A stretch of 64,000 bases of DNA, from contig CAMDTW010000436.1 of NCBI GenBank assembly GCA_945910005.1, positions 1 to 64,000 of the forward strand, given 5' to 3'. The position numbers and the translations under genes were made by a program. Below the pieces are notes generated by a model, which saw only the letters and a list, made by a program, of their open reading frames with translations, was not told where the DNA came from and did not search any database. Shown piece after piece: positions 25,456 through 63,700 of the stretch. Origin of the DNA: Isoperla grammatica (Eukaryota; Arthropoda; Insecta; Plecoptera; Perlodidae). The stretch's first letter is position 1; each line of letters opens with the position of its first letter.

Positions 25456-25885
25456 ACTCAACGGTAGGGCCTACCTTTTTCATCATAAAAATATGTAGTA
25501 GTACTACTTTACCGACTCCTCACCTACCTCTATGCTAGGACCACAGCCCCTGGCATAGAAACTACGTGCGCACGTGTTTGCTGGAAGAAAATTAGTCGAG
25601 ATTCACTACTAGATTCATTTCTTGTATAGTGGTTGTAGGTATGACCAATATTATAAAGCTCGAAGACAGAACTTTTGTGAATCCGCCTCCTTGTATGTTA
25701 TTTAATATGATGTTCCCACAATACTATGATGATTCCCCAGGGTTTCAAGTTGAAAACGGTAATTGAAGTATTTTGTACGAGTTCTTGACTTATTTCAGAT
25801 TCTGTGGACATTTTGTTGGCAAGTATTTTTTCGTTGAGCCAAATAGGGGTGCAGAACCGGCCTGCCAAGCTCGGCACCTCATCTT
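25456..25885. other. no gene seen
   Basis: No recognised element or ORF with domain content. Confidence 0.4.
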
Positions 25886-26462
25886 CATACTCCTCTTCCC
25901 ACGACACCAGTTCTCTCATCATCTCCCCCTCTCCTCAACCACTGCCCACTCCTTATCTTCATTCTCCTCTTCCCACGACACCATCTCTCCTACCACCTCC
26001 CCCTCTCCTCAACCACTGCCCACTCCTTATCTTCATTCTCCTCTTCCCACGACACCATCTCTCCTACCACCTCCCCCTCTCCTCAACCACTGCCCACTCC
26101 TTATCTTCATTCTCCTCTTCCCACGACACCATCTCTCCTACCACCTCCCCCTCTCTTCAACCACTGCCCACTCCTTATCTTCATTCTCCTCTTCCCACGA
26201 CACCATCTCTCCTACCACCTCCCCCTCTCCTCAACCACTGCCCACTCCTTATCTTCATTCTCCTCTTCCCACGACACCATCTCTCCTACCACCTCCCCCT
26301 CTCCTCAACCACTGCCCACTCCTTATCTTCATTCTCCTCTTCCCACGACACCATCTCTCCTACCACCTCCCCCTCTCCTCAACCACTGCCCACTCCTTAT
26401 CTTCATTCTCCTCTTCCCACCTCATCTTAATACTCCTCTTCCCACGACACCAGTTCTCCCAC
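25886..26462. repeat. 74-bp CT-rich minisatellite
   Basis: About seven units of 74 bp built on CTCCTCTTCCCACGACACCA and CTCAACCACTGCCCACTCCT. Because 74 is not a multiple of three and no frame has a stop, overlapping ORFs of 242 and 208 aa arise. These are not genes. Confidence 0.95.
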
Positions 26463-26896
26463 CACCTCTCTCTCCTTCACAACTGCGTCCACCTAGTTTA
26501 GCCATCTGTCTCGTGGTCTTACCACTATTTTTTCATTTTGCTACTCAAAGCTAGTTTTGGGATTCTGTTACCATTCCTTCTTCTCATGTGACCGTACTAT
26601 CGAATCCGCTCCTTTACTAACTTGAATAGGGAAGTCTCATGTATTATTTTTATTATTATTCTATATTAGGATCAACTGGCAAAACACAACCATATTTCAT
26701 TTGTGTAACTAAGAACAAATTTTCATTGATAAAAACGAGGTTAAAGTTTTCCATATAATTTTGGCGGCAAAAACGGGCCATGGCGTCACTACTTGTATGA
26801 TGCAATCAGCCAATCATACACACTATAACTCCTCTTTCCAAATCTTATCAGTGAGAAGCATACGTGAAATCGTGACTTGAAAGAATACATAATAAT

Positions 26897-42190: not shown

Positions 42191-42752
42191 GGGAACGCGT
42201 ACAACAAACGACTACACTGCAGCGCTGCGAGCGTTCCGGCCACTGAGCTCTGCCTGCTAGAATTCACCGAAGACCCCTCTAGAAGCCAGTGCACTAATTA
42301 TCAATGACTTAGAAATTCGTATTGTTGAAATGATTGTGTGTATAGGGCACTAGCAACACCAAAAGACAACAATGAAACAAATGAATTGAATCGATGGACA
42401 AACAACAAGCTGTCAAAAAATAATGTCTTCTGATTTTGGAAAACAACACAAAAAACAAACAAATACACATACAAAACTTTCACTTAGTTGTTGTTTATCA
42501 TTAAAAGTTTTAAATGACGAGCAGTTACTATTGCTACACTTGTTTTTATTTCTATGGTTGCAATTTTATTATTTTGACAGCTGATTGTGTGTCCATCACT
42601 TCAATAGGCTACTTGCATAACACAATTTTATTACTCTACTATGAAGATATTACACGTCTAAGAGCAATGCAATTCAAAACAATTTATTTTTTCCTTTTTT
42701 GACGGAGAAAATAAATAAGTAGTTTTCCCTCCCTTTACCGCGCTCGAAAACG

Positions 42753-45700
42753 ATGTTTGAACGAAGCGCCATCTTTATGACGTACACGGCCTCTACGCTG
42801 CCTGCCAGCGCAGGCATTGGCGCAGGCCAACAGTCCCACTCCCAACACAGCTGTTGCATAGCTGTTGCGATGGCTGCATCGCCCGAGTTGGATTGCAAAC
42901 GAAAACGCAGGTACAAAATTCCATACAAGTGGTGTTTTGTTCCACTATGTACGAATACGACTGTAAAGACACCAACTAAAATATTTGTTAGTGTTCCGAA
43001 GGATGCTAAGAGAAGAAAGAACTGGATGAAAGCAGCCAAACGAGATGTCCCAAAATCCAAGTCAACAATGTATTGTTGTCAAGATCACTTTAACGTACGT
43101 ATACAGATAGTAGGCTAGAAGAAATCATTATGCTATATTAGGCCTAGTTATTTTGAAGGATGAAATGTCTTGAGCTTCAATAACGGAAGCTTCAAGGACG
43201 TTTAGTACACAGCTAGGCCTGTAATAGGCCTAGGCCTAGGCGTAAAATGTACATTGTACAAGGCGTAGGCCTAGGCCTAGGCCCCTAGTAGTTCTGTCAC
43301 AATGACAGTTCGTTGGTTCAGTAAGGATGTTTTGGTAGCCTAGGATTCAATAGGCTAGTTAAGTGTAGGGGTAGGCCTAGGACCTAGGCTAGACTATTCG
43401 TAGGTATTTTCTAGACTGTCATAGAAATTATATTTATCAATACCTATATTTATTCAATAAATTTTATCAATTTATAGAGGCCTACTGTTTTACCAGACTT
43501 TGTTTAGGGCCTTATCTCTTTATACTGCCAGTTCTTTGCTGACACTTGCTCAAATAAAGAAGTAAATCCATAGCTCTAGAATGTGGACTACAGTGGAAAC
43601 CTTTTACGCCCTACGTATGTTTATAAAATGCGGATACTGTCATTAGAGTCATCATATTATTATTTTATTTGAAAATTACTTAGTGCATTTTCTAGTTTCA
43701 CATACACATGTGACACACAAAAAGAATAGTATAATAGATTTAGCTACTAGGCCTACATTTAATTACACAATAGCCATATTGTCACATAATTAGTACTAGG
43801 CCTAGATCTATGTGCCTTTGTAATAACAAAATTGCTTTATTATTTTTAGATGGAAGTTGATGCTGACAACTGGGTGCATTACAATTTAGTGGGTGGTGCC
43901 ATCAGAATGAAACCCGAAAAAGTACCTCATATTTTTGATTGCCAACCCAATAGAAATGCAGCACATTCGTCAACACCCAGATCAGCTGTTGTACATAAAC
44001 GGTACATAAGACAAATTTTGAGCATGTCGGAAATACAGGGTGCAAGAGAGCTCGAACTACTTTCCACAAGCCAGGATACAATCATGCAAGAAACACATAG
44101 TGAATCTTTGGATTTAGAAGTTGATGGAAATAATATATGCTCTATCGCTACACCAACTGGTATGTTTCATTAAGCCTAATTAATTAACCACAATAAATAA
44201 ATAAAATAATATATACCCGTAGGTCTAGGCCTTCCACCAATTATAAGTAAACACCCCAATCAGTGGTTAAAGTGGACTCGGAGAAGTGACGGTATGCACT
44301 AATGCTGTGTAAAGCAGACAAAGCGGGTATGTCGGAGGATCTTAGTAACGGTATACATACATACCGGCTCATACCGCCCCACTTTAACCACTGACCCCAA
44401 TAGATTCATTTGCATGTTATAATACATGTACATATTTGTATTTATTTGTATTGGATAGCAAGAATTAATGAATGGCTGAAAAGTCATCATCGCATAAGAA
44501 GGAAAAAAAAATTTTGAAAATTCCCTAGTAGGCCTACTGTGAACCATGGCTCGACCCCAAGGCCTACCAGAGTTATACACTAATTATATCCATATTCAAG
44601 TGCTAAACAAATTTGCACCTAAAAACATATTGTTAGTACCGTAAGGATAATATAGGCCTACATTTATATTTGCTATGAGCCATTTGGCTTGTACAGGAAT
44701 AGTTCAATGGGATCATTTGATTTAAATTTAAGAATGGAGGTTAGGTTTATGTTTACATTAAGCATCATTCATAATCAGTTTTAAGGCGTAAGGTCTAAGG
44801 CGTAAGGTCTTAAGTCGTAAGGCGTAGGAAAAGCCAACCGTTCACAATAGAATGATTTTGGAAGCGCCCCGTTGTTCTACGCATGCGCAACGGACGCGGC
44901 AATGACGATGCACAGCCTTTTGTATGTTCGACCACGGTGTTGGACACATGACTGCATGGTAGTGTATCAGCTGTGTATGGTAGGAGAGGGAGATAGGCCT
45001 ACCTTGTTGGGATTGGTTCGTCGTAAGAGTCTCGTCGTAAGAATTGGATTTTGGGCAATTCACTACAACTTGCGCCTTACGCCTTATAACATACGACGCG
45101 TTGTGAACAGTAACATTGAAACATACGCTTGGCAATATTAATTAAACCATACGCCTTACGCCTTAGACCTAACGCTTAAAAACTGATTGTGAATGAGCCT
45201 TAAGCAGTATTGTCCCTTGGCCTTAAGATTCACTTTTTCTTGAGCTAAAAACCAAAGAATTAGGGTGTATTATGCTAAGTTTTCCTTAAAACATGTAAAT
45301 AATAATATAAAATTTCATTTCTCAAGTTTATTTGATAATTTGTGACACACATGTTGTTACATACAAAAAATACCAATTAAAGTCTTAATAAAAACAAATT
45401 AAACCTACAAATATCTCAAGTAGGCCCTAATCATTATAAAAATGAAAATAAAAAATTAATTGGATTTTAAATAAATAAATCATACATCCTAGGCCTACAT
45501 GCATACATTTCTAGATGCATAATAATGGTTTCATGATAACAAAATCAATTGCTAAGCAAACATTAATATTTGAAGTTTGTATTTTGCTTGGTTAGGCCTA
45601 CCGCCTTCTAATTATTAATTAAAGAACTAGGGCCTAATGTTATTTTATTTATTTTCAGCAACATTTGTAGACAAGGGTGTCCAAGCAAGGCCAACCTACC

Positions 45701-46833
45701 GTAGTAAAGGTACTAGCATTGATGTATCTTATCTAGAAAGAGACACCTCTACTGCCAGCACAGCATGTTCGCCTATTAAACCGGGAATCAATGTCCAGAC
45801 TTCTCCAATCAAGTTCCAGAAACAAGTTCTAGTTAAGAAGGTACTGGAGTTGCCAAGTGATACTGATTCGTGTGAAAGTAGTGTCAATGCAACATATACG
45901 TCAGCCACATGCACTGACACAAGTTACATGGACTCGGATTTTGAAAAGTTTGCCAACGATGAACTGCAAATGCTAAGTTTAAAGAAAACATTGTTATTGA
46001 TTGAAAAACATCCTAGGCAATACTTGGGTTTACCTGATGATTGTTGGTTTTTAGTTGATTTGCTGTCAAAAAGGCTACATTCTAGAAAAGCTAGGGAAAA
46101 CGTCTTGCTGACATTAAAAAAGCTTCGGCTTAATGCTTCACTTGTTACATTGGGGCATGACTTTGGTATTTCTCTCTCTCAGGCAAGCCGAATTTTTAAA
46201 ACCACATTACCAGAAATTTCCAAATATATGAAACAACTTGTGGTTTGGCCAACTAAAGAAAGTATTCAACAGTTGTTGCCAATATCCTTTAGAGCAAGGT
46301 TCAGTAATGTTCAGTCAATCATAGACTGTTTTGAAATAGAAATCCAAAAACCATCAAATCCAGTAACACAAGCACTTACTTGGTCTGAATACAAAAAGGC
46401 TAATACTGTTAAGTATTTTGTGTCGTCAACTCCTGATGGGTTAGTTAATTTTATCTCAAGTGGTTACGGCGGTCGAACAAGTGATATTACAATAACAGAG
46501 CATTGTGGATTTCTTGATAAACTGACTCCTGGAATGGCTGTAATGGCTGACAGGGGCTTTAAACATTTGGATGCACATTTACTTAGAAAAGGTTGTACCC
46601 TTATTCGACCTCCAAGTGTGTCGGCAGATACAAAATGTACTCGTGAGGATGTCATCCAAACGAAAGTTATTGCTAGCCTACGTATACACATTGAAAGAGT
46701 AATTAGAAGATTTAGAGAGTTTGCATTCTTAGCACCTCATGCATGCATTGATACTGAATCTGTTTATCTTGCTGATCATGCAGTGATAGTTGCTGCTGGG
46801 ATTGTTAATTTGCAAGGACCATTGATTAAATAG
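42753..46833 (+). CDS. THAP-domain DDE transposase (3 exons)
   Basis: Exons 42,753-43,094, 43,850-44,159 and 45,659-46,833. Donors are GTACGT and GTATGT, acceptors TTTTTAG and ATTTTCAG, and phases (0, then 1) agree. Total 608 aa, or 569 aa from the ATG at 42,870, which is the likelier start because it directly precedes the basic patch and THAP domain. THAP domain: WCFVPLC, a basic core with RRKNWMKAAKRD, CCQDHF, then RMKPEKVPHIFDCQ across the first junction. Exon 3 holds a helix-turn-helix-like region (LVTLGHDFGISLSQASRIF) and a DDE_Tnp_4-type domain: IIDCFEI (first Asp), GYGGRTSDI, MADRGF (second Asp), HIERVIRRFREF (Glu). It presumably binds the TIRs and catalyses cut-and-paste. No stop or frameshift was seen. 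Confidence 0.85.
44261..44393. mobile_element. 133-bp hAT MITE in transposase intron 2
   Basis: CAGTGGTTAAAGTGG and CCACTTTAACCACTG termini, with ACCCCAAT on both sides (44,253-44,260; 44,394-44,401), a perfect 8-bp target duplication. Confidence 0.93.
44762..45199. mobile_element. TTAA-target MITE in transposase intron 2
   Basis: The ends carry CATTCATAATCAGTTTT and its counterpart, then AAGGTCTAAGGCGTAAGG repeats. TTAA lies at 44,758-44,761 and 45,200-45,203. The 438-bp insert leaves the exons intact. Confidence 0.8.
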
Positions 46834-47115
46834 GTAGATATAACTGCTCGTCAGGAATCACTTTCTTGTTAATTTCAACTTGGGCTACAACATAAAGTAT
46901 GTTACATGACACCCAGTCTTCATGTTTATTTCATGTCTTTTTCTTTTATTACATGCCAAAAGACAAACTTAGGCCCACATTGTATGTACAAACTCGTAAC
47001 AAAGTAAACTATAAAATGAAGAAGTAACTGACAATCATAATATGGATTTAATTTAAAAATGTGTTTGCTACATTTTTACATCGTGTGCTATGTATAAATG
47101 TAATATGTGTATAAG

Positions 47116-47410
47116 GTATGCACAACACCAAAACACAACAATGAAACAAATGAATTGAACCGATGGACAAACAAGCTGTTAAAAAAAAATATGAAGTTCT
47201 GAAGTTGGGAAAACAAACGTTCAGAACGTTTACAAACGTTTACGTCAGATAGTTGCTGTCCATTAATGAAAATAAATTTTAACTGGCGAGCAGTTACTAT
47301 CGTTACAACTAATTGTTTCTCCTCATTATTTGCAAAGATATTACTTTGACAGCTGGTTGTTTGTCTACCAGTTCAATTCATTTATTCCATTGTTGTAGTT
47401 CGGCTGTTAC
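47116..47410. mobile_element. MITE-like copy between the two transposon genes
   Basis: Matches the element's own left 260 bp (ACAACAATGAAACAAATGAA, GATGGACAAACAAGCTG, GAGCAGTTACTAT). It lacks the outer AGGGCACTAG. A related element therefore inserted inside the autonomous copy, or an end was duplicated internally. The rest of 46,834-48,215 shows no gene. Confidence 0.7.
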
Positions 47411-48215
47411 GTCAGTTGTGCTAACCTATAGGTTATGTTGATATCAATCGGTTGGAGTGGTTTAGTATTGAGTACCGGAACTGGTACTACATAATTAAGC
47501 GAGCGTCTCCATTAGACCTTTATGGCACTTCGTTTTTTTTTTTTATGTCTGTCAATAGCGTTTGAACGGAAAGTCCGGTCAACTTGAAATTTGGACCATC
47601 CTCAAGCCTCGATGTGGATTGGAGGTGTTTAGTTTTGAGGCAAAATCGTTCGAAAAGTTACAAAGTTACACCATAGTTACTGCAAAATATTTTTCTGAAC
47701 AAAATGGCGGCAAAATGTGAGATAGCCATATTTTTCTAAAGCTTTTTCCGGTCACGAATATGTTCATTTTATTGCGATTTAATAAATATTGGCAAAGTTA
47801 CACAAAAGTTACTCAAAAATATTTTTCTGAAACACAGTAACAGCAAAATGTGAGGTGGCTATCTTATAGGGCTATCTTATAGTAAATTTTGGTCTGGTCA
47901 CGAATATACTAATTTAAACCCAATCGGATACGTATTAGAGGCAGAAATTACATTTCTATTGCTGTCAATAAGTGTTGGTAACGGTGGCGGACCATGTTGA
48001 AAACATGACAATGAAAATTCTTAGCAACGCACATTGCACTGCTTTCAACAATGTCGAAAAGTATAATAGCTATGGAAATTAGAAAAAATTTTGCAATGCG
48101 ATTCTTGAATTGTTGTTGTGGTTTTTTGTTTTTATTAGTTTTGAGAACTTTTCGCCACAAAGTTCGTAGATGGACGCGCTCGCTTATCAACGCGTCAAAC
48201 ATACCGTTTTCCTAG

Positions 48216-48221
48216 TTTATT
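48216..48221 (-). terminator. poly(A) signal for the YqaJ gene
   Basis: AATAAA on the minus strand, 55 bp beyond the stop codon at 48,276. Confidence 0.5.
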
Positions 48222-48275
48222 TCAATACGCCTTCTACATTTCCACTCGTATACACATATGTATATATACAGTATA

Positions 48276-50337
48276 CTACTGTGTACCCTTAAGAAGTATT
48301 GGAAATACAGCTTTTTTCCAGAAGTGTATACCATCTTCAATAATTTGTTCAATAAATTCTTGATCATAATTTACCATGTATGTTGTTACTTGTCTTGTTG
48401 ATTCAAAAGTGTGATCTGCGATACAAAAATATCCCTTTTGTTTTCCAGCCATGAGCATTTGGAGGTTAATCTGTGCTAAAAACTTTGGATTAATTTTACC
48501 ATTATTGACATATCGTTGTACTGATTTCTCAGAAGTAGGGCACTTTACTTCAACTACCACATCATCTCCTACAGCATCCGGAGAAGCTCCTAGCATTGGC
48601 CACTTAGGATTTAAAAGAAGGCCTTCTCTTCTTAACTTTTTTTTAATTTTGTTTGCAACAACTTCAATTACCTCTTTCTCTAGAGTTCTCCCGCGTTGCA
48701 TTGCCTCTGTGTCCTTTATCTTTTTAGCACCAAGTATGGCCTCCACCAAGGAACCTTTTAGTGTTTTGCACCTGGCAGCTTCGTAAATTTTCGATGCCGT
48801 TATTCTTCCATAACGCAACTCATACCACAACTTATTGTCTGCCTGACCTTGTGTCAATGAAGCCGCTTCATGACATAAAGATTCAGACATTAAAACACGA
48901 GCTGTATTTAAGAAATTTTGATATGTTAAATTTTCACTTTGTTTGTAGTGTGAAATTAATGAATGCATTGAGAGTCCTTGTGCAGGATTTTGTGGGTTGC
49001 CACTAAAATGTTTGATTAATTGACTGTTCACAGACCTTTTGGTACCCTCCTCAATAACTTCTCTTAAAAAGTCATTTTCAACATCATTTTCCTCCTGTGT
49101 TAGAGGTTCTTTATTAAATTCCTTAACTTCAATAAACTTCAATCCAGTACCTACTGTTGCAAGTTTACATTTTTTCCAGTAGCACTGGACTGAGGTGCAT
49201 GCAGGTTCTTCACTCCTTCGATGCAACCACATCAAGAATGCAATAGAATGTTTACATCCTCCTGCAATAAAACACACAATATTTGTGTCAGTGAACCGTA
49301 ATATTCCATATTGGTAACAGACCAGTAGGTACTAGATCTAGCCAGTAGCCACACATACCTACAGACGCCGCACAATCGTGACATTCTACGCTGATAATTT
49401 TTTCGTTTTCTTCGTCGAGTGTCAGTGTCACAGAATATCCTTTGGCTCGAACTCGGTGTTCGGGACACACTCTCCCTTTCACTGTACAGAGCGACTGCAC
49501 TCTTCGAACCTGCACATATCCCACTGCTGAATCTCCGTAACTTTCTCTACCTGATCTGCAGAAATGGAAAAAATAAGTTTGAATGGCAGTGAGAGAAACT
49601 CTGTAGGTAGGTCTTAAAATTGAATTTACATTTATGGCTACAGGGCTGTTTATAATTGGGGGTGGGGGGAATAGGTACGTGTGTCACAACATTTATGGAT
49701 AGTGCTATATCCTAATTCCTAAATCAATTTCCATATACCTTTAACTAGAAGACTAGACCTAGTTGTTTAGGGTTATCCTTATTCTATTTAAATATTAAGG
49801 TAGGGTCTAGTGTGACAGGCACGGGAATTGGACATTTAGTTTACTAGTAGAAGCCGTATGAAGGCCTAGGCTTATATACGTATACGTGGCATAGGCATTG
49901 GGTTCACTTTAAACAATAACAAATTGTCAAACACAATTTCGGACAAGGGATAGGCCTAGGCCTAGGCCTAGTACAAGGCCCACATTTGTGATGTTCTACG
50001 GCGCCTACCAAGGTCACCTGACGGGTGGAGGTTGATAATTAGTGACAGAAAATAGTAATAAAGAACGGGCAAGACTTTATCACACACTAATAATAATACA
50101 AGACTAGTTAAAGTAACGCCGAAGATATAACTGATTAGGCCTACCATCTTTTAGGCCTAGGCTATGAAAATATAGGTAACAAAGTTCATAATATTATGTA
50201 ACTTACCTCTCTGCTTTTACATTCTTCATTTCAGCTCTAACATGGTTGTCACTGTTGCCTAGATATTCGGCTACCATGAAACTATCTATTCGACATAAAT
50301 TATCCGATTGACCCTTTTTAAATCCTTGTTCCGTCAT
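48276..50337 (-). CDS. SWIM zinc finger-YqaJ exonuclease (3 exons)
   Basis: Minus-strand exons 50,337-50,207, 49,555-49,359 and 49,261-48,276. GTAAGT and GTATGT donors, TTCTGCAG and TTATTGCAG acceptors. Exon lengths 131, 197 and 986 nt sum to 438 codons in frame (437 aa). Residues about 1-60: MVAEYLGNSDNHV and KAERSGRESYGDSAVGYVQV. A SWIM-like zinc motif is completed exactly by the second splice (ECHDCAASVG + GCKH), then AFLMWLHRRSEEP. The C-terminal YqaJ domain shows RYGRITAS, MQRGRTLEKE, the acidic LGASPDAV, catalytic VEVKCP and AQINLQMLM. This is the metal-dependent lambda-exonuclease/PD-(D/E)XK fold that phages use to resect DNA ends. The role in transposition is inferred, perhaps processing of ends or of the donor break. 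Confidence 0.88.
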
Positions 50338-50637
50338 TGTCACGCTCACCTCACCGCTGTAGCTTTGAAGGCGCGGGCTAGCGTGCAGGCCGATGACGTC
50401 AAAAACGCGTCAGCCAATCCGTGCGCGTTTCTCAATAGTGAGGAAATTCAAATATTTACTGCTTTTTAACTCTGTTTTTACTCACTAGGTAATTGTTTTT
50501 TTTTGTAAAACGTATTTTTTTCGGATTCTGTACACAAAAAACTATGAACCTACATAGTTTAAAACCATATATGGAACTTATGCAAGTAGCCTATTCATTT
50601 GTTCCATTGTTGTCTGTTGGTGTTGCTAGTGCCCTAT

Positions 50638-60732: not shown

Positions 60733-60752
60733 AGTAGTAGTAGTTATCCAAG

Positions 60753-63700
60753 ATGGCGCCAGAGCCTCACGTACGTGCACAGCCGCTCCAATGTGTTTTT
60801 GTTATTTTGATATTCAGTTTGTGGTTTTGTGTTAATGTTTTGTGCTCATCTCAATTGCCTAAGGGGTGTGATGATGTGGAAGTGTTATCTCAAAGAAAGT
60901 GGTGCTTATCCGAAAGATTTTTCAAGTTTTCTTGTGCTGCGGCCGCTGGACGTTTCGCACAATGGAGACCAGACGCCAAGCAGCGTGTTCGGCAGTGGAC
61001 TCGCGCGGACGGATCTAGCGCGTGGAAACTTTTACTCATCCTCGCCATCTCAGGTGACATTCAAATCAATCCAGGACCCTCAAACAACGCAATTACTAAT
61101 TTCAGTGTATATTATCAGAATTGCCGTAGTATCGTTAATAAATTGGATGACTTTTCGGCTCAGTTAAGTGACTTCTGTAAATTTGACTTTATCGCCCTCT
61201 CTGAAACGTGGTGTAATTCGAGACTTTGTGATGCTGAAATTCCTCTCTCTAATTTTTTCACTATACACCGTAAAGACCGTATCACTAGGGGCGGTGGCGT
61301 GTTGATCGCTGCCAACCAAAATCTGCCCTATACTGTGCATCGCAGACCTGATAGTCCAAGAGCCAGCAACATAAAAGCTCCCCTCATAAGGTACATATGT
61401 TTTGACTATTGGAATAGGAGCGGAAAAACTACTCTACTAACAAAACGCGCGTCTTACTCCTCAACGTGGGGGCTTTTAGGCCCCACAGGGGGCCAAAAAA
61501 GCCGAAAAAAGGCCCAAGTTCCCCTCATAAGGTACATGGTAGGTCTCGACGGCAAATGAACCGGAAATGTTAGTACAAATAGAAAATACTGAGTCAGACG
61601 GGCTGAGTGGGGGCTTTACCCGAGTCAGACGCCCTCAAAAAGGGCCCAAAAAGGCCAAGGTTCCCCTCATAAGGTACATGGATGAAGTAAACGCCATTTT
61701 GTAGAGATAAGTGTCCCAAATAGGAATTCGAAGAGTAAGACGGGATATTAAGGGGCGTTTACCGATCAGACGCCATTTTACCCAAAAAGGGCCATTTTTT
61801 ATTTTCGCACATGCATGCGCTTAAACACTCAAATCATATCCGGAAATGTCTCGAGACGTAGAAAAACATACATTTTAAAGAAAGTTTGGGTTATTGTCCT
61901 CGCCAGACGCCCTCAAAAGGGGCCCAAAAAGGCCAAGGTTCCCCTCATAAGGTACGTAGATGGATGGAGTATACGCCATTTGTTAGAGATAAGTGTCCTA
62001 AATAGGAATTCGAAGAGTAAGACGGGATATTAGGTGGCGTTTACCGATCAGACGCCATTTTACTCAAAAAGGGCAATTTTTTATTTTCGCACATGCATGC
62101 GCTTAAACACTCAAATCATATCCGGAAATGTCTCGAGACGTAGAAAAACATACATTTTAAAGAAATTTTGGGTTATTGTCCTCGCCAGACGCCCTCAAAA
62201 GGGGCCCAAAAAGGCCAAGGTTCCCCTCATAAGGTACGTACATGGATGGAGTATACGCCATTTGTTAGAGATAAGTGTCCTAAATAGGAATTCGAAGAGT
62301 AAGACGGGATATTAGGGGGCGTTTACCGCTCAGACGCCATTTTGTCCAAAAAGGGCCACTTTTTATTTTCACACGTGCATGCGCTTAAACACTCAAAACA
62401 TATCCTTAAATGCCCCTAGAGGTGAATACATTTCAAAGATATTGTGTGATGTCCTCGCCAGCCCCCCCCCCCCCCCCCCCCGCCTCGATCCGGATGCGAT
62501 AGTTTTGAAGCTCCGCCCACCCCTAACTTTAATATACCAGTAGTTATTATTATTAATGTCAGGATTTAAGGATATGTTTCGGGTGTTAAAGCGCGTGCAC
62601 GTGTGGAAATAAAAAGTGGACCCTTTTTTTTATAAAATGACGTCTGATCGGTAAACGCCCCATAATATACCGTCTTACTCTTCGAATTCCTATTTGGGAC
62701 ACTTATCTCTACAAAATGGCGTTTTCTCCATCCTTGTACCTTATGAGGGGAACCTTGGCCTTTTTGGGCCCCTTTTGAGGGCGTCTGGCGAGGACGTCAC
62801 ACAATATATTTGAAATGTATTCACCTCTAGGGGCATTTAAGGATATGTTTTGACTTTTGAGTGTTTCAGCGCATGCACGTGTGAAAATAAAAAGCGGCCC
62901 TTTTTGGACAAAATGGCGCCTGATCAGTAAACGCCCCCTAATATCCCGTCTTACTCTTCGAATTCATATTTGGGACACTTATCTCTACAAAATGGCGTTT
63001 ACTCCATCCATGTACCTTATGAGGGGAACTTTGGCCTTTTTGGGCCCCTTTTGAGGGCGTCTGGCGAGGACAATAACCCAAAATTTCTTTAAAATGTATG
63101 TTTTTCTACGTCTCGAGACATTTCCGGATATGATTTGAGTGTTTAAGCGCATGCATGTGCGAAAATAAAAAATGGCCCTTTTTGGGTAAAATGGCTTCTG
63201 ATCGGTAAACGCCCCCTAATATCCCGTCTTACTCTTCAAATTCCTATTTGGGACACTTATCTCTACAAAATGGCGTTTACTCCATCCATGTACCTTATGA
63301 GGGGAACCTTGGCCTTTTTGGGCCCTTTTTGAGGGCGTCTGACTCGGGTAAAGCCCCCACTCAGCCCGTCTGACTCAGTATTTTCTATTTGTACTAACAT
63401 TTCCGGTTCATTTGCCGTCGAGACCTACCATGTACCTTATGAGGGGAACTTGGGTCTTTTTTCGGCTTTTTTGGCCCCCTGTGGGGCCTAAAAGCCCCCA
63501 CGTTGAGGAGTAAGACGCGCGTTTTGTTAGTAGAGGTGTTTTTCCGCTCCTTTTCCAATAGTCAAAACATATGTACCTTATGAGGGGAGCTTTTATGTTG
63601 CTGGCTCTCCGTCTATGACCTTGAGGAGCAATGTGAAATTGTGTGGTTACAAGTCAACACACCATCCAGACCAGTTTTTGTAGGGTGTTTCTACAGACAA

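Follow-up and report, generated by a model that had tools for sequence, protein, structure and literature searches.

The stretch of DNA analysed here, called the window below, comprises 64,000 nucleotides of the plecopteran Isoperla grammatica (GenBank assembly GCA_945910005.1, contig CAMDTW010000436.1, positions 1 to 64,000 of the forward strand) and contains, at 42606..50592, an element of 7,987 bp with two convergent genes, one predicted to encode a THAP-DDE transposase and the other a nuclease of the lambda exonuclease type. Judging from its sequence and that of its copies, the element is almost certainly an ISL2EU-type transposon, nested at an AATT site, with duplication of AT, in a 303-base miniature inverted-repeat transposable element (MITE). 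Its terminal inverted repeats of 15 bp are 100% complementary, with AGGCTACTTGCATAA on the left (42606..42620, plus strand) and its counterpart on the right (50578..50592, minus strand), and the duplicated AT lies at 42604..42605 and 50593..50594. The limits of the element and the duplication were set by genome copies with the same ends and by MITE copies with an empty site, and the right repeat by its pairing with the left one and by the genome copies.

The two convergent genes

The transposase gene lies on the plus strand and could be joined in frame from three exons, the first (42870..43094, with two other in-frame ATGs, 42753 and 42777) carrying most of the THAP domain, the second (43850..44159) the end of this domain, and the third (45659..46833) the HTH_Tnp_4 and DDE_Tnp_4 domains and the stop codon. 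Each domain match in the domain search is above its curated cut-off (THAP 2.4e-11, HTH_Tnp_4 1.7e-9, DDE_Tnp_4 6.3e-37), and D401, D476 and E524 are present in the reading of 569 amino acids. The named relatives among the best 120 rows of the protein search were uncharacterised arthropod proteins, the first at 45% identity.

The nuclease gene, on the minus strand, was likewise joined in frame from exon 1 (50207..50337), exon 2 (49359..49555), which by comparison with homologues holds most of a SWIM-like zinc module, and exon 3 (48276..49261), which holds the end of this module, the lambda-exonuclease/YqaJ domain, recognised also by its fold, and the stop codon. The YqaJ domain match (1e-14) is above the cut-off, the window exon alone matched LHK-Exo (3syy) with an E value of 6e-11, and a profile of 40 homologues, which were chosen from 120 listed of 371 found and served also for conservation and structure models, matched lambda exonuclease with an E value of 2.3e-13 and with the D, the E-x-K and the arginine of lambda R28 in register. 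The D, E, K and arginine are kept in 39, 40, 40 and 39 of the 40 homologues, respectively, and all four in the window exon, the 5'-phosphate-binding arginine being R259 in the window protein and R149 in exon numbering, while the zinc-module residues C67, H77, C102, C105, C112 and H114 are invariant in 40/40. The predicted structure of the window exon, with a mean predicted local distance difference test score (pLDDT) of 86.4, had LHK-Exo and lambda exonuclease as its top PDB matches, and the VIA-align structural listing covered mostly residues 206-436. As predicted from its family, the second protein is probably an active 5'-3' exonuclease, which would take 5'-phosphate ends as its substrate. 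SXT-Exo is reported to act on DNA ends and to prefer 5'-phosphate, endonuclease activity not being seen (PMC3118119), and SOX and lambda exonuclease are described as needing DNA ends, favouring 5'-phosphate and leaving 3' single strands (PMC9841436).

The named nuclease relatives among the best 120 rows were arthropod proteins, the first at 48% identity, and one homologue (P0116) had already been annotated as a SWIM-type protein by its source. Neither gene had a near-identical protein among its best 120 rows, so the host proteome is probably outside that protein database. A search for nuclease relatives in viral contigs gave 13 pattern matches, 0 of which were confirmed by tblastn; viral and phage YqaJ proteins match the nuclease well by fold (best E value 4.2e-10), which is uninformative on descent.

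Nesting, ends and copies

Two sets of inverted ends surround the genes, placed by a repeat search of the region at 42339-42386/50593-50640 (outer) and at 42603-42620/50578-50595 (inner, perfect). The outer set, a 48-base inverted match of 94% with AGGGCAC.../...GTGCCCT at 42344/50635 and AT outside both, had been taken in the initial annotation of this DNA as the ends of the two-gene element. When 42344-42900 was searched against the insect's own genome (G000, 874 Mb; 40 of 774 candidates scored, so that copy counts are lower bounds), the matches broke near base 260, and all rows other than the window were confined either to the initial 262 bases or to the part that starts at about base 255-262 (one at 215), which indicates one element inside another. 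The outer parts, joined with the inner element removed and one AT retained, form a 303-bp MITE sequence that continues uninterrupted across the junction in 17 of the 18 fetched MITE copies, with TTCAATTCATT and a single AT, at 98.4-99.7% over 301-303 query bases (best 99.7% across all 303). These copies with a single AT at the same site are therefore paralogous empty sites, and the inner element was inserted here with the limits 42606-50592. The 18th copy (L033) ends at base 262 and then runs into other sequence; by eye, the MITE is broken there at the same AATT site and is followed by tRNA-like sequence of a short interspersed element.

Over the whole genome, 1,735 forward and 1,826 reverse exact matches to the 17-base MITE end were counted, 3,561 in all (0 and 0 for the reversed-pattern control), which corresponds to roughly 1,800 MITE copies if most have both ends. 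No autonomous source of the AGGGCAC MITE was found; among the first places listed in this census, one end pair (G000:C1:35322214-35327032) spans 4.8 kb and could represent either a relative of larger size or a further case of nesting. Thus, the AGGGCAC/GTGCCCT ends at 42344/50635 are those of the 303-bp MITE, not of the two-gene transposon, and the MITE is split by the transposon into a left part (42344..42605) and a right part (50593..50635, its first two bases being the duplicated AT), both read on the plus strand and recovered in MITE copies elsewhere, the right part also in a right-end search. The reading that the element is the whole stretch 42344-50635 can point to the long inverted match and the AT outside it, but both inner ends are present in 18/20 fetched two-gene copies (with one change in L022) flanked by sequence other than the MITE, the outer 17-base end recurs 3,561 times with the fetched examples being MITEs of 303 bp, and the joined outer parts recur elsewhere at up to 99.7%. 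These inner ends, the MITE copies and the census rule out the outer ends as those of the transposon, and the whole-stretch reading keeps practically no probability. What was described at 42344 and 50635, inverted ends with AT outside, is indeed there, whereas its assignment to the two-gene element is withdrawn and the boundaries are moved to 42606 and 50592, with an AT duplication of their own. Such nesting is a warning that the apparent ends of a transposon can be those of a MITE around it.

Besides the window, 20 of the 21 transposon-side match places from the 42344-42900 search were fetched. Both ends are within the fetched stretch in 15/20 copies, with AAT before and ATT after in 15/15; in L022 the first base of the left end is C instead of A. 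In longer stretches, both ends were found in three of the other five copies (L013, L024 and L025), each with insertions of about 5-6 kb; L024 and L025 lie in AAT/ATT, the left flank of L013 is TGT, and L010 and L027 had no right end even there. The A|AT|T target is thus seen in 18/19 both-ended copies, the window included. Genome-wide, the exact 15-base end was found 46 times, versus 2 for the reversed pattern, as 20 pairs, the shortest of 7,943 bp and the longest of 14,664 bp, with 6 ends left single, and the right-end search gave 23 rows with the transposon's end, the window included (a lower bound, with 40 of 305 candidates scored). Shared sub-terminal words beyond the inverted repeats were limited to two 9-mers, with 0.6 expected.

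The transposon also harbours an older, diverged relative of the host MITE between its genes (47106..47403, plus strand; found by repeat search, about 79% in the best stretch), which falls within single full-length alignments of the fetched copies L014, L015, L016, L023 and L028, and a MITE-like inverted repeat with 50-nt arms, 88% complementary, in transposase intron 2 (44758..45203). Elsewhere in the window, inspection by eye suggested a 271-amino-acid open frame resembling the start of a non-LTR (long terminal repeat) retrotransposon ORF (open reading frame) at 60744-61559 and, at 25767-26554, a C/T-rich repeat in which three open frames, themselves repeat-derived, overlap.

Age, constraint and gene pairing

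The window and the 15 copies whose two ends lie within the fetched stretch were compared as 16 complete copies, L010, L013, L024, L025 and L027 being left out. They are 0.08-1.5% apart, and on this sequence measure the family is young. All four introns are GT-AG in 16/16 copies and the exons of both genes join in frame, which confirms the two convergent genes with in-frame introns that had been proposed from the window, together with the expected DDE and YqaJ motifs. An 11-bp deletion between the ATGs at 42753 and 42870 is present in 5/16 copies (L014, L015, L016, L026 and L028), so the ATG at 42753 is probably not the transposase start; read from 42870, three of these five (L014, L015 and L016) are open throughout. 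With this start, 12/16 copies have an open transposase, among them L022, in which 18 bases are added in frame; the nuclease is open in 14/16 and both genes in 11/16.

Changes common to at least two of the 16 copies comprise 4 amino-acid and 7 silent ones in the transposase and 3 and 4 in the nuclease, and singleton changes 15 and 4 in the transposase and 16 and 6 in the nuclease. The ratio of amino-acid to silent polymorphism (pN/pS) is accordingly 0.16 and 0.20 for shared changes in the transposase and nuclease, versus 1.06 and 0.71 for singletons. Shared amino-acid changes are too few by the binomial test (P 0.0035 for the transposase, 0.040 for the nuclease), the comparison of shared with singleton changes gives a combined P of 0.009 (0.047 for the transposase alone), and shared variation affects 1.89% of non-coding versus 0.60% of coding sites. 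Both genes therefore appear, from small numbers, to have been under purifying selection during the spread of the family.

For the pairing of the two genes, the own genome was searched with the last exon of each, and rows were compared by position, a partner being a row within 10 kb. The nuclease search scored 122 of 300 candidates, with 105 of 124 rows entered, and the transposase search 106 of 280, with 102 of 107 entered; the rows left out were additional fragments of loci that had been entered already or lay nearby, and the counts are lower bounds. Nuclease rows of at least 440 bits have a transposase within 10 kb in 21/21 cases and transposase rows of at least 500 bits, which form the own family, a nuclease row in 23/23. 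Pairing falls among nuclease rows to 7/11 at 200-440 bits (one being a piece of the own family), 4/18 at 60-200 bits and 8/55 below, and among transposase rows to 8/11 at 220-500 bits and 9/68 below; the weak transposase rows may be other Harbinger-like elements. Orientation is convergent in 40/40 nuclease rows with a transposase neighbour, other families included. The possibility that these are ordinary host genes was ruled out, since the two are found together as one unit at many places. Arthropod nuclease and transposase neighbours also co-diverge (Mantel r 0.66, 0/10,000 permutations, 10 pairs, host relatedness uncorrected); these pairs are the window and nine from the best-120 lists, six matched through locus tags next to each other on the same contig and three on equal contig size alone; a Plutella pair, in which the sizes differed, was excluded.

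The same searches revealed a second ISL2EU-type family, with a nuclease about 46% identical, at G000:C5:111611058, C20:8582934 and C5:51503828 (+), followed 1.1 kb downstream by a transposase row on the opposite strand; the three places score equally and have open frames, and this family is likely to be young as well. Many open frames are weakly YqaJ-like at 29-37% identity (e.g., C14:22170586, C17:2838794 and C5:108181941), several of them of 638 amino acids with equal scores and others of about 480-835 amino acids, and 47/55 nuclease-search rows below 60 bits are without an ISL2EU-type transposase row within 10 kb; such frames could possibly represent another class of nuclease-carrying element.

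A possible role of the nuclease in break repair

Because the defining features examined in its sequence are all present, the element is assigned to ISL2EU, named IS4EU in Repbase. As set out in PMC4482050, ISL2EU belongs to the PHIS/Harbinger-like superfamily and has AT duplications in A|AT|T and mostly two open reading frames, for a DDE-HTH-THAP transposase and a YqaJ protein, all as found here and, with frames apparently intact, as the initial annotation had recognised. The element differs from that description in its length (7,987 bp versus a mean of about 4,840 bp), in ends that begin AGG where GG is given as "usually" present, a usual rather than defining trait, in the presence of an older MITE and of an inverted repeat within an intron, and in the SWIM-like module of its second protein, which is not named in the account given there. 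The earlier statement that the role of the second gene is uncharacterised agrees with the same source, where the function of the extra ISL2EU open reading frames was called unknown in 2015, and in 2022 no proof of ISL2EU activity was reported, to the authors' knowledge (PMC9179366); no experimental test of an ISL2EU nuclease in transposition was found among the best matches from the open PubMed Central literature.

The nuclease shares its predicted fold, active-site residues and 5'-phosphate arginine with the lambda exonuclease family (LHK-Exo 3syy, lambda exonuclease 1avq and SXT-Exo), but has an extra N-terminal half with the SWIM-like zinc module and is encoded, with introns, in a eukaryotic transposon. 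KolobokE is likewise described as a DDD/E transposon with a lambda-exonuclease-like nuclease, although of another transposase superfamily and with the nuclease downstream of the transposase domain rather than in a separate convergent gene (PMC9587614). PIF/Harbinger elements also have two genes and a DDE transposase of the same superfamily as here, whereas they are reported to have TWA duplications and a Myb/SANT second protein (PMC4482050) in place of AT and YqaJ; the domain search gave no Myb match in the second protein of our element.

From its family, ends and duplications, the element is likely to move by cut and paste at AATT via the predicted THAP-DDE transposase, whose DDE cleavage and joining are predicted from its family. 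In the mechanism proposed here, this transposase would cut and paste the element, the nuclease would resect 5' strands (5'-to-3') at the DNA breaks made by transposition, on donor-site or element ends, a homologous template still holding the element would serve to repair the resected donor break, and this shift to homologous copying would raise the copy number. The whole account, a cut-and-paste ISL2EU transposon whose nuclease resects transposition breaks, comes close to an even balance of probability without reaching it, and the homologous-repair step by the nuclease is put forward tentatively. The sequence data show two genes that are kept together and look constrained, and the defined step in transposition that the initial annotation gave the nuclease is an inference. 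That ISL2EU transposons in general carry a break-resection enzyme of their own, a SWIM-like-tethered lambda-type exonuclease forcing repair from the homologous copy, appears rather unlikely. The 5' resection of a break commits it to homologous repair. Since lambda-type exonucleases act on ends, resection leads to homologous repair and such repair restores a transposon, the nuclease could raise copy number by steering repair, and the DNA ends made by transposition would be a plausible substrate. In Caenorhabditis elegans, homologous repair is reported to put an excised transposon back, while end joining does not (PMC13148408), and the same kind of enzyme in two transposase superfamilies, with KolobokE as the other carrier, suggests a use in transposition.

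Several results weigh against this account. Although the copies contain a minimum of 11 recombination events by raw count, the distance between incompatible sites does not significantly exceed that between other pairs of sites (333/2,000 permutations as large). In P and hAT elements, gap repair that is interrupted is known to leave many internally deleted copies, and here 0/20 pairs of exact ends are shorter than 7.9 kb, as expected if such repair is very complete or does not take place. The usual companion of a phage lambda exonuclease is an annealing protein, and no such partner is apparent in the element's frames, though no search aimed at one was made; the only other frame of at least 130 amino acids inside the element is antisense to transposase exon 1. 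With no significant mosaicism and no deletion derivatives, a recombination role is thus so far without genomic trace. Constraint on the nuclease rests on 7 shared changes, and its shared versus singleton comparison alone is not significant (Fisher P 0.19). In other families, among the rows scored, a partner within 10 kb is missing for 4/11 nuclease rows (200-440 bits) and 3/11 transposase rows (220-500 bits).

The second protein might instead be mainly an accessory one that binds DNA and recruits the transposase through its SWIM-like module, with nuclease activity secondary, comparable to the Myb-like protein of Harbinger, whose second protein is described as importing the transposase into the nucleus and binding the ends (PMC9179366). 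The two-gene layout shared with Harbinger and the zinc module invariant in 40/40 homologues speak for such a role, which we nevertheless regard as unlikely, the retention of the catalytic D, E and K in 39, 40 and 40 of 40 homologues being unexplained if the activity is dispensable. The nuclease could also cut or trim the non-transferred 5' strand at the element ends, in the manner of TnsA, the PD-(D/E)XK protein of the same catalytic superfamily that works beside TnsB in Tn7, and the constant pairing with a DDE transposase in the own family would suit this. Its closest solved relatives, however, are end-dependent exonucleases rather than endonucleases, with the 5'-phosphate arginine in 39/40 homologues, and Spy elements, of the same superfamily, are described as having no second gene (PMC4482050) and yet as having active native transposases (PMC11304231), so that a TnsA-like function seems improbable. 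Degradation of DNA or of silencing intermediates, whether from the host or from competing elements, with no direct part in transposition, has nothing specific in its favour beyond other roles known for viral alkaline exonucleases (PMC9841436); the constant own-family pairing and the co-divergence with one transposase type suggest a shared job, and this explanation is the most doubtful of those considered for the nuclease.

The SWIM-like module, the 23/23 pairing and the end-pair census add to what is known of ISL2EU. Both the jumping of the element and its need for the nuclease become testable, since the family has many near-identical copies with exact ends and both frames open, its target has been mapped, and empty sites occur naturally. 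If the resection proposal is true, a cut-and-paste element would gain copies on jumping, and phage-style recombination would have been reused inside a eukaryotic transposon.

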